Source: an uncultured Verrucomicrobiota bacterium (GTDB lineage Bacteria; Verrucomicrobiota; Verrucomicrobiia; Limisphaerales; CAIQOK01). Taken from it: 64,000 nt of DNA. The stretch is taken from assembly GCA_903873415.1 (NCBI GenBank), contig CAIQOK010000021.1, forward strand, positions 1-64,000, given 5' to 3'. The notes beneath the pieces are model-generated. The model worked only from the letters and a program-made list of their open reading frames with translations, searched no databases and had not been told where the DNA came from. How positions within the stretch are numbered: position 1 is the first letter of the stretch; every line of letters begins with the position of its first letter. Below are positions 60,377 through 64,000 of this stretch, piece after piece. The translations under genes were made by a program, and so were the position numbers.

Positions 60377-62299
60377 ATGCTGAATACCAAATCATTTTTG
60401 GCGGTGGACTTCGGGGCCGGCAGCCTGAAGCTGGGTGAATTTGAGGCCAACGAGTCGGGCGGCCTGCGCTTGCTCCAGTTCGCAATCAAGCCCCTTGGTC
60501 CGGAAGGTGCCCAAGAGTCCACACGCGAGGCGACGGTGCTCAAAGCGCTGCAGGAAGTGATTGCCGACAAAGGAATTGCTTCCAAGACCGTCAATGTGTG
60601 CGCGCCGGGCTTTCACGTTTTCTCTAAATTTCTCAAGCTGCCTCCGGTAGATGCCGGCAAGGTCACTCAAATCATCCAATACGAGGCGCAACAAAACGTT
60701 CCTTTCCCTCTGGCCGAAGTCGTTTGGGACTACCAGATCCTCGGGACCACTGCCGGGGGCGAGCTGGAAGTGCTTTTGGTCGCGATCAAGTCTGACATCG
60801 TGGAGGGTTTGTTTCGCGTGGCCGAGTCGGCCAAGCTCAAGCTCAGTCTGGCGGACGTTTCTCCGGCCGCCTTGTGCAATTCTTTCCGATATAATTACGC
60901 CGATTTGGATGACTGCACGATGCTCTTGGATATCGGGGCAAAGACGAGCAATCTGCTCTTCTTCGAGAAGGGGAAGGTTTTCTCCCGCAGCATCAATCTG
61001 GGTGCCAATTCCATCACCCAAGATTTTGTCACCGAATCAAAGCTGAAGTTTGAGGTGGCGGAGAAGATCAAACGGGAAGAGGGGTTTGTGAGTTTGGGCG
61101 GGGCCTATGAAGAGCCGGAAAACCCCAATCAGGCGGCCATCTCGAAGATCGCCCGCCAGTTCATGACCCGGTTGCACATCCAAGTCAATCAGACCATGCA
61201 GTTCTACCGCGGGCAGCAGGGCGGATCGGCCCCGCAGCGGCTCTTCCTCTCCGGTGGCGGTTCTATCATGGGCTACACGCCCCAGTTTTTCGCCGAAAAA
61301 CTCAGCATCCCCGTCGAATATTTCAATCCGTTCCGTAACATCCAGATCGACCCGTCGGTCAATCTGGAGGAGCTCTCCCCGGTGGCTCATTCGTTGGGCG
61401 AGGTTGTGGGATTGGCCTTGCGGAATCTGGCGCAATGCCCGGTGGAGTTGAATCTCATCCCTGAGAGCACGCAGCGCTTGCAGTCTTTCAACGAGAAAAA
61501 GCCCTATCTCATGGCCACGGTCTTCAGCTTGGCGCTGGTGGTGGCGGCAATGGGCTACCTCTTCCAGCAGTTGGCTGATGTGAAGTCGGACGAGCTTAAC
61601 AGCAAGGTGAAACCCGAGCTGGAGCCGGCGCAGCGCCGGGAGGCGCAGTTTAAAAAAACCTATGCCGAGTTGAAAGCAGCCGGCAAAGAACTGGGCCAGC
61701 TCTCCCAGTGGGCTGAAGACCGCTACTACTGGCCCAGCGTAATGTCCGAGCTGCGCCGCATCCTCATCCGGACTGAACAGGTCAGCCAGCAGAAGCTCCG
61801 GGCCGATACCGGCGTCTGGATCGAGAAATTCATCACCGCCACCCCATCCGATTCCGGAGTGGCAGGCTCAAATCCCTATATGCCCGGTCTGGCGGCCCCG
61901 GCGGCTCCCTCCGTAGGTTCGGATCTGGCCCGTATTCGTGAGGAAATGCGCCGCCGCTACATGCATCCGGGCGGCGTCACTCCGCCTTCTTCGATCACCG
62001 GCGGTGCGGCTGAGCCCGGCGCGGCCCCGGCCCCAGCCCCGGAAGGCACACCGGCCAGCGTGGTGAATTCCAACGAGGTGTCCACGATCACCCTGACCTG
62101 CCGAGCCATTGACCTGAGCAGCCAGATTCCCGATGCGAACCAGACGATCATTTACACCCTGCAGAGCGAGTTAAAGGGGAGCACGAATTGGTTCGATGCG
62201 GACAAGACGGAGTTGGATGGTCAAATCGTGCAGGATCCAAACACCTCGACCTTTACGTTCGGCGTGAAAGTCGTTCTAAAGCGGCCGCTCAAACTGTAG
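60377..62299 (+). CDS. pilM: PilM-like ATPase fused to a periplasmic PilN-like part
   Basis: A 640-aa protein. Residues about 1-350 are the actin-like PilM domain: LAVDFGAGSLKLGEFE, LDIGAKTSNLLFFEKG and RLFLSGGGSIMGY are the phosphate and nucleotide loops. One transmembrane helix (about 375-397) follows, then a helical stretch, a Pro/Ala-rich linker (about 505-560) and a final beta-rich part. Standard PilM ends without a membrane helix (about 350 aa) and pairs with a separate PilN; here the two are one chain. It anchors the type IV pilus machine at the inner membrane. The next gene starts 1 bp after its stop. I chose ATG 60377 because the domain begins there. Confidence 0.85.
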   Translation: MLNTKSFLAVDFGAGSLKLGEFEANESGGLRLLQFAIKPLGPEGAQESTREATVLKALQEVIADKGIASKTVNVCAPGFHVFSKFLKLPPVDAGKVTQIIQYEAQQNVPFPLAEVVWDYQILGTTAGGELEVLLVAIKSDIVEGLFRVAESAKLKLSLADVSPAALCNSFRYNYADLDDCTMLLDIGAKTSNLLFFEKGKVFSRSINLGANSITQDFVTESKLKFEVAEKIKREEGFVSLGGAYEEPENPNQAAISKIARQFMTRLHIQVNQTMQFYRGQQGGSAPQRLFLSGGGSIMGYTPQFFAEKLSIPVEYFNPFRNIQIDPSVNLEELSPVAHSLGEVVGLALRNLAQCPVELNLIPESTQRLQSFNEKKPYLMATVFSLALVVAAMGYLFQQLADVKSDELNSKVKPELEPAQRREAQFKKTYAELKAAGKELGQLSQWAEDRYYWPSVMSELRRILIRTEQVSQQKLRADTGVWIEKFITATPSDSGVAGSNPYMPGLAAPAAPSVGSDLARIREEMRRRYMHPGGVTPPSSITGGAAEPGAAPAPAPEGTPASVVNSNEVSTITLTCRAIDLSSQIPDANQTIIYTLQSELKGSTNWFDADKTELDGQIVQDPNTSTFTFGVKVVLKRPLKL

Positions 62300-62300
62300 T

Positions 62301-63284
62301 ATGCCCTGGATAAAACGTAATCTTCTCTTCCTGATAGGGGCCGTGGTGGCTGTCATACTGCTCGGCTTGGGAGGCTGGTATCTCTACGCCAAGTCCGAAT
62401 TGAACAGCGCCAATCTCGAGGAGCTTAATAAAGCCTATGCGGAGCTGGAGCGGATTGCTGGCCTCAACCCCAACCCGGGCAACTCCAAGACGGACAACAT
62501 CGCTCTGGCCAAGGAGCAGCAGGCACGGGTGCGCGATCAGATACGAAAAGTGGGCCGCTTCTTCACGCCTATCCCCCCGATCCCGGCGGGAGCAAATGTC
62601 ACCAGTGAGGCTTTTTCAGCCGCCCTTCGACGCACGGTCGTGGAGTTGGTCAGTCAAGCCGGCATGGCCAGTGTCGGTCTTCCCCCGAAAAACGCCACCA
62701 CAGGCGCGTCCTACAACTTCTCCTTCGACGCCCAGCGTAATCTCGTCAAGTTTGCCTCCGGCAGCCTGCCCGCTCTGTCCAGTCAGTTGGGTGAAATCAG
62801 AACCATTTGCGGTGTTCTCTATGCAGCCCGTATCAATTCGTTGGACGGCATCCGGCGCGAGCGTGTTTCCACGGATGATTCCAGCGGGGCCGCCACGGAT
62901 TATCTCGATGGCCAGTCGGTGACCAACGAGCTGGGGGTTTTAACGCCTTATGAAGTGACGTTTCGTTGCTTCAGTCCGGAGTTGGCCGGCGTCCTTGGGG
63001 GATTGGCCAGCGACCCGCACGGATTGCTGGTGAAAACAATCAATGTGGAACCGGCTCCGCCAAGTTCGGCGCCTGCATCGGATGCTTCCGGAGCGATGGG
63101 GGCCTATAGCCAAGGCTTTGCGGGTTCGCGTTACTTTCCGGGCGGGGGCAATCCCTATGCCGCGGCGGCGGCACCAAGCGGGGTTCCGGCCGTTGGGGCT
63201 GGTGGGTTACCGATCCTTTTGGATGAAAAGCCTCTGAAAGTCACCATGGTGGTTAACGTGCTGAAATTGCAGCCCAGGAAATAA
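62301..63284 (+). CDS. Amuc_1100-like pilus-assembly protein
   Basis: A 327-aa protein with an N-terminal transmembrane helix (LLFLIGAVVAVILLGLGGWYLY), a coiled segment rich in Glu/Ala (SANLEELNKAYAELERI) and two beta-alpha folds, ending with a Pro/Ala/Gly linker and KVTMVVNVLKLQ. Length, topology and gene order match Amuc_1100 of Akkermansia muciniphila (317 aa), a PilN/PilO-type protein that lies next to a PilM gene. The identity level cannot be judged here. It starts 1 bp after pilM. Confidence 0.7.
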   Translation: MPWIKRNLLFLIGAVVAVILLGLGGWYLYAKSELNSANLEELNKAYAELERIAGLNPNPGNSKTDNIALAKEQQARVRDQIRKVGRFFTPIPPIPAGANVTSEAFSAALRRTVVELVSQAGMASVGLPPKNATTGASYNFSFDAQRNLVKFASGSLPALSSQLGEIRTICGVLYAARINSLDGIRRERVSTDDSSGAATDYLDGQSVTNELGVLTPYEVTFRCFSPELAGVLGGLASDPHGLLVKTINVEPAPPSSAPASDASGAMGAYSQGFAGSRYFPGGGNPYAAAAAPSGVPAVGAGGLPILLDEKPLKVTMVVNVLKLQPRK

Positions 63285-64000
63285 ATGCAGTTCCTAAAGA
63301 AAAATTACGAAAAGGTTCTGCTCGGCTTGGTGCTGGTAGGACTTGTGGTGTCGGTGGGCTTTCTGGTGGTGCTCGTCTCCAAGGAAAAAGAGGCACAGGA
63401 AGAGCGCCGGACCAAGATTTTCAACCGCCCGGTCAAGCCTATTGAAGCGGCGGACACCACCGCTCTGGAAGCGCTGCTGGCCAAAGCCGATTCTCCTTTG
63501 GCCCTCGATTTGTCGAGTAGCAACAAGGTGTTCAATCCGGTGCGCTGGCAAAAGGACGCCAATGGAAAGCCGTTGCGTAACCCGGCGGGCAGCGAGTTAC
63601 GCAACCTGCAGGTAGTTAAAATTTCTCCGCTCTACTTTGTGCTTACTTTGGATTCCGTGAGCGTTTCCGATTCCGGGGTCCGCTATGTGCTGGGGTTGGA
63701 CCAGCAGAGCAAGGCCCGCGCGGGCAAGCGTCAGTATTACGTGTCCAAGGGCGATAAAAAGGATCTCTTTTCTGTGGTCGAGGTGCGGGGACCCGCTGAG
63801 AACCCCACGGCCCTGGTGCTGGAATTGACCGATTCGGGTGAACGCGTGTCCATCGCGAAGGAACATCCCTTCCGACGTGTTGACGGATACATGGCCGATC
63901 TAAAATACCCCCCCGAGAACCGCTCGTTTTTGGCCCGTCGCACGGGAGCCACCCTTTCTTTTGGCGGCAGCGAATATAATCTCGTTGCCATCACGGAGGA
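63285..64000 (+). CDS. Amuc_1099-like pilus-locus protein (partial)
   Basis: A frame open from the ATG directly after the previous stop (TAA then ATG with no gap) to the window edge: 238 codons are visible. It has an N-terminal transmembrane helix (VLLGLVLVGLVVSVGFLVVLV), a basic/acidic linker and a beta-rich periplasmic part with two similar segments (SPLYFVLTLDSVSVSDSG, TLSFGGSEYNLVAITE). The position in the operon fits Amuc_1099, and a secretin (PilQ-type) gene would be expected next. The gene is cut by the window end. Confidence 0.6.
   Translation, partial: MQFLKKNYEKVLLGLVLVGLVVSVGFLVVLVSKEKEAQEERRTKIFNRPVKPIEAADTTALEALLAKADSPLALDLSSSNKVFNPVRWQKDANGKPLRNPAGSELRNLQVVKISPLYFVLTLDSVSVSDSGVRYVLGLDQQSKARAGKRQYYVSKGDKKDLFSVVEVRGPAENPTALVLELTDSGERVSIAKEHPFRRVDGYMADLKYPPENRSFLARRTGATLSFGGSEYNLVAITE

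Follow-up and report, generated by a model that had tools for sequence, protein, structure and literature searches.

The protein Amuc_1100 of the gut bacterium Akkermansia is studied for its probiotic effects and is described as a surface pilus protein. An operon at the end of the window analysed here, 64,000 nucleotides from an uncultured bacterium of the order Limisphaerales, encodes a distant counterpart of it. The window comprised bases 1-64000 of contig C21 (152,763 bases), which belongs to a 3.8-Mb genome that is 97.8% complete. It ends in three + strand genes with intergenic gaps of 1 bp and then 0 bp, and the contig continues past it with a secretin gene, three genes for secreted proteins (S802, S755, and S1293), and coaE, as follows.

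60377-62299, + strand, PilM/N gene, counterpart of Amuc_1101 (640 aa)
62301-63284, + strand, PilO-like gene, counterpart of Amuc_1100 (327 aa)
63285-64073, + strand, 1099-like gene, counterpart of Amuc_1099 in the PilP position (262 aa; cut by the window at 64000)
Contig C21 64060-67023, past the window end, secretin gene (987 aa)
Contig C21 67134-69542, past the window end, secreted protein S802 (802 aa)
Contig C21 69571-71838, past the window end, secreted protein S755 (755 aa)
Contig C21 71869-75750, past the window end, secreted protein S1293 (1293 aa)
Contig C21 75851-76504, past the window end, coaE (dephospho-CoA kinase)

The best NCBIfam matches of the four core proteins were, in genomic order, Amuc_1101_fam, Amuc_1100_fam, Amuc_1099_fam, and Amuc_1098_fam; all four scored under the equivalog cut-offs, and the match to Amuc_1099_fam was weak. 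Gene calls and family matches agreed with the preliminary description, which had placed the three genes 0-1 bp apart in Amuc_1101-1100-1099 order. A promoter scan upstream of the operon gave no sigma-70-like site. In the PilM/N protein, Pfam PilM_2 was found at residues 10-350 (3.4e-38), and the profile of the protein matched the solved PilM structures 3jc8, 2ych, and 5eou. The model NF045709 (Amuc_1101_fam) gave E 2.5e-140 and 469 bits against a cut-off of 650, BLASTP with Amuc_1101 gave 30% identity over 462 aa, and hhalign of the PilM/N family with the Amuc_1101 side gave E 1e-102 over 593 columns. The protein combines a PilM with a membrane-anchored domain at its C-terminus, which stands in the PilN position and had no Pfam or PDB match; by position and architecture alone, this domain is a putative PilN. 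Judged from the sequence, the type IVa pilus component PilM is present in the operon.

The secretin gene directly follows the 1099-like gene. Its start was taken as a TTG, and the true start is possibly slightly downstream. Amuc_1098_fam was the best family (E 1.1e-104), PF00263 was found by Pfam (1.4e-32), and the A. muciniphila counterpart was matched at 1e-47, so that the next gene of the operon on the extended contig, at 64060-67023, is a secretin and not a gene unrelated to pili, in keeping with the pilus operon proposed earlier. The GspD model scored 154 bits and the PilQ model 117 bits, both under cut-off, and the long N-terminal region had weak TPR matches. A type IVa pilus secretin (PilQ) is accordingly a predicted component of the operon. 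In several Limisphaerales relatives (L016, L018, L020, L117, and L124), the operon secretin was read as two consecutive frames of about 760 and 215 aa; these split frames recur too often for one assembly error, and in these relatives a gene of its own may encode the channel domain. The 1099-like protein has a membrane helix and beta-rich domains and is 262 aa long, as against 337 aa for Amuc_1099 of A. muciniphila. Its alignment with the Akkermansia-side family by hhalign (88.5%, E 2.7e-6) was weaker than that of the other pairs, the match to NF042425 (Amuc_1099_fam) was weak (16.5 bits, E 0.005), and Foldseek of its model against the PDB returned no fold match at E <= 0.001. From its position, it would take the PilP role.

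The 327-aa PilO-like protein begins with a short basic stretch (MPWIKRN) and a single membrane helix, which are followed by a coiled coil and an alpha/beta domain; a disordered loop rich in Pro and Gly (residues 258-306) precedes the last strand. Residues 31-317 of the Amuc_1100 query are identical to PDB chains 6lad and 6kny, and the A. muciniphila reference cluster was taken from a genome whose Amuc_1100 is 100% identical to this query. Neither BLASTP nor phmmer matched the 327-aa protein to Amuc_1100 or to PDB sequences; its relation to Amuc_1100 came to light through profiles and structure alone. The NCBIfam model NF038287 (Amuc_1100_fam) matched at E 1.3e-15 with 57.7 bits, under the curated cut-off of 180 bits; other Limisphaerales-side members scored 58-82 bits, as against 248-301 bits for Verrucomicrobiales members. 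The NCBIfam search also gave a weak secondary GspM match, and Pfam recognized neither the PilO nor the PilP position protein. Profiles were built from 24 Limisphaerales-side (A1) and 20 Akkermansia-side (A3) sequences, and the PilO-like profile aligned with its Akkermansia-side counterpart over its full length (311 columns; 99.7%, E 3.2e-26, range 3e-26 to 8e-26) at about 12-13% identity. The six mismatched profile pairings and all control proteins, taken from the PilO, GspM, and GspC positions of the genome's other clusters, gave E 2e-4 or worse. The homology of the core proteins to Amuc_1101-1100-1099-1098, as estimated from these comparisons, exceeds chance; by its NF038287 score, the 327-aa protein is classed as a distant homologue of Amuc_1100, not an equivalog.

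An AlphaFold2 model of the 327-aa protein had a mean pLDDT of 76, with a high-confidence core. When it was compared by Foldseek with 350,542 PDB chains, ranks 1-10 were all Amuc_1100 (6lad/6laf/6kny; E 3e-8 to 2e-7, TM by target 0.68-0.78), and this structural match upholds the kinship with Amuc_1100 that the preliminary description had suggested. The next matches were PilO of P. aeruginosa (2rjz and 5uvr; TM by target 0.60-0.67), and PilO within the type IVa pilus machine model 3jc8 was found lower down. The predicted structure places the protein in the Amuc_1100 fold superfamily, with a PilO-type fold. At the N-terminus, WIKRN is followed by a hydrophobic helix that runs into the coiled coil, with no evident cleavage site; read from sequence and model, this fits a putative inner-membrane-anchored periplasmic protein. 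Immunofluorescence has put Amuc_1100 outside the cell (PMC5332112), a location that sits uneasily with a PilO role.

Other pilus and secretion genes were located on three further contigs. Contig C145 carries a pilB-pilT-pilC cluster with a PilB-like protein at 615 bits (cut-off 676), a PilT family match of 444 bits that exceeds its cut-off, and a PilC/GspF family member, with no secretin among the matches on that contig; PilB, PilC, and PilT are thus predicted to be present in the genome. A second PilB/GspE-like ATPase in two frames (G000:C145:22384-23536; L077:9361-10600), attributable to a frameshift or assembly error, adjoins these genes. On contig C133 there is a further, T2SS-like cluster that has a secretin of its own, and a second compact pilM-to-secretin cluster lies on contig C1 (G000:C1:19937-24180; L076:7881-12343) beside prepilin-like genes. 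Because this second pilM cluster has its own secretin, we only infer that the C145 motor is paired with the operon of the window. The PilB/PilC-type and PilT-like genes of A. muciniphila also lie away from its Amuc_1098-1102 cluster.

In A. muciniphila, the cluster runs Amuc_1102, 1101, 1100, 1099, 1098 (secretin), coaE, and rho. This locus (MUL2 plus secretin) and the operon described here have in common the succession PilM/N, PilO-like, 1099-like, secretin, with coaE downstream, as well as the same predicted fold of Amuc_1100 and the 327-aa protein. They differ in that Amuc_1102 stands upstream of PilM in A. muciniphila and is lacking here, whereas three secreted genes separate the secretin from coaE here and none do there. 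Of the features of the MUL2 locus, homologues of amuc_1099-1100-1101 in conserved order were found, that of 1099 being weak. With Proteobacterial type IVa pilMNOPQ, the operon shares the functional order M-N-O-P-Q, PilM homology, and the PilO fold, but here PilM and the N-position domain form one protein, the PilO and PilP positions are unseen by Pfam, and the secretin, at 987 aa, has a long region at its N-terminus. In the type II secretion system (gsp), too, a secretin is coupled to an inner-membrane platform with actin-like and GspM-like parts, but a PilM-type protein is found here where the T2SS has GspL, and a gsp-like cluster is present separately on C133.

Loci of this kind have been described before. 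NCBIfam already holds families Amuc_1098 to Amuc_1102, and in one review Amuc_1098 is treated as PilQ and Amuc_1100 as associated with pili (PMC10688800). In a 2026 study, MUL2 (amuc_1099-1102) synteny is reported across Akkermansiaceae and frequently in further families of Verrucomicrobiales, more rarely in Chthoniobacterales, and as absent in Methylacidiphilales; pilus-mediated glycan attachment is proposed for MUL2, and Limisphaerales go unmentioned in the main text (PMC13174399). The preliminary description drew attention to the locus as one outside Akkermansia, but such an occurrence is not unusual: the locus is published across Verrucomicrobiales (PMC13174399) and was found in most Limisphaerales. 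As far as searched, the new points are the evidence from profiles and fold that covers the Limisphaerales branch, the near-universal occurrence there, the absence of Amuc_1102, and the extension by three genes.

The PilO-like gene was detected in 101 of 116 sampled Limisphaerales genomes, and its presence in 69 of the 72 good ones indicates that this gene is widespread in the order and probably vertically inherited. Among 388 Verrucomicrobiota genomes, the Limisphaerales profile was positive in 115 and the Amuc_1100 query in 53; nine genomes positive with both (G013, G167, G188, G200, G234, G238, G314, G316, and G339) appear, by these sequence searches, to bridge the Akkermansia and Limisphaerales groups. 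In a quick PilM tree rooted on a distant paralogue, the Limisphaerales-side group had support of 0.96 and most Akkermansia-side proteins stood apart (0.91), with one Akkermansia-side sequence (L064) beside the Limisphaerales-side group. The PilM tree and the distribution fit vertical descent, and on these grounds a horizontal transfer out of Akkermansia was discarded. Three metagenome assemblies, two titled Akkermansia muciniphila (L017 and L029) and one Klebsiella pneumoniae (L033), carry an operon that groups with Limisphaerales-type sequences, and the species names on these public records look wrong.

The accessory genes differ between the two sides. In all 13 long Limisphaerales loci, picked for length of contig and not at random, the order was MN-O-P-Q-S802-S755-S1293, with coaE further on in five. 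Six Verrucomicrobiales-side loci had the order 1102-MN-O-P-Q, followed in five by coaE and rho, and the S802, S755, and S1293 genes were not detected at these six. Amuc_1102 (MUL2A, pilin-like) was searched with the full protein and with its family model plus controls: no match was found at 27 related loci, and the model was positive in none of 116 Limisphaerales genomes, this one included, and in 8 of 9 Verrucomicrobiales-side controls. The three large secreted proteins (L006:7134-15750; contig C21:67134-75750) belong to no clear family, and their N-termini are Sec-type by eye. S802 had faint matches to fn3, one GH43-like propeller, TSP3, and F5/8-type hints, S755 had an Ig-like He_PIG match, and S1293 had almost no domain match. 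PilY1 was considered for the 802-aa protein and rejected, as there was no Pfam PilY1 match. Most speculatively, and as a guess, the three may be surface or pilus-associated glycan-binding proteins that replace Amuc_1102 in Limisphaerales. A tentative extension of this idea, doubtful in its entirety, is an ancestral Amuc_1100-type pilus machine with a Limisphaerales-specific surface module, in which S802 (propeller-like repeats, fn3, and galactose-binding-like hints), S755 (Ig-like), and S1293 (long, of no known family) might serve as pilus-tip or cell-surface glycan catchers, the role proposed for Amuc_1102 in Verrucomicrobiales.

The evidence that the operon is a divergent form of a known locus is good, and we consider it likely to represent the Verrucomicrobiota pilMN-O-P-Q operon in Limisphaerales. 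It would encode the secretin and alignment complex of a type IVa pilus whose genes are split, with PilB, PilT, and PilC elsewhere in the genome. Direct support exists for the homology of PilM/N, the PilO-like protein, and the secretin, for the gene order, for the PilO-type fold as predicted, and for the widespread, apparently vertical presence. PilM on the cytoplasmic face and the membrane-anchored N, O, and P proteins would form an alignment complex linking the inner-membrane motor (PilB, PilT, and PilC on C145) to the outer-membrane secretin, a link that, as predicted from the genes, would let the pilus extend and retract. In favour of a pilus are the ordered family matches, specific profiles with clean controls, a fold closest to Amuc_1100 and then PilO, and the adjoining secretin, together with coaE downstream as in A. 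muciniphila, a motor cluster without a secretin elsewhere, split as in A. muciniphila, the T2SS-like cluster that stands apart on C133 and has a secretin of its own, a PilM tree that largely parts the two orders, and the bridging genomes. Against it are the slightly better score of the secretin on GspD than on PilQ, the weak GspM match, the positional assignment of PilN and PilP, and a 1099-like model without a solved-structure match. Those secretin and GspM scores, with the three secreted genes right after the secretin in 13/13 long Limisphaerales loci, would suit a secretion machine, in which secretin and inner-membrane platform export the three large downstream proteins; this is rather unlikely given the strong match to PilM, a type IV pilus component, PilO as the next structural relative after Amuc_1100, the secretin that the C133 cluster already has, and PilT-type retraction ATPases in the genome.

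A likeness to Amuc_1100 that were generic to PilO, without any special kinship to the Akkermansia locus, would agree with the nil pairwise similarity and with the Pfam PilO model weakly touching one Akkermansia-side member. It was already disfavoured and is very improbable, since the ten best PDB folds are all Amuc_1100, with E values about four orders of magnitude lower than those of PilO, the PilO- and GspM-position proteins of the genome's other clusters fail to align, the neighbours 1101, 1098, and coaE are kept in order, and intermediate genomes connect both sides. Recombinant Amuc_1100 activates TLR2 (PMC5332112), and its host signalling had been the reason given for interest in the locus; fold and locus in common might suggest the same function for the 327-aa protein. 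Yet what is shared amounts to a PilO fold and a place in the operon, with about 12% of residues identical when the profiles are aligned, many relatives come, by record titles, from sediment, lake, and soil metagenome assemblies, and the gene is near-universal in Limisphaerales, as for a machine part, which makes a host-signalling factor the least credible of these explanations and leaves that ground for interest unsupported.

For the family, the reading as a pilus alignment complex suggests that Amuc_1100 is not an Akkermansia invention and has its origin in an ordinary component of pilus machines that is widespread among environmental relatives. The Amuc_1100 fold and operon position, occupying the PilO slot across an environmental order, argue that the ancestral job was the alignment of an envelope-spanning pilus machine, and host signalling by Amuc_1100 would then be a by-product or a later gain. 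The exchange of accessory genes, Amuc_1102 on one side and three secreted proteins on the other, suggests which parts are the likeliest to determine the binding target of the pilus.
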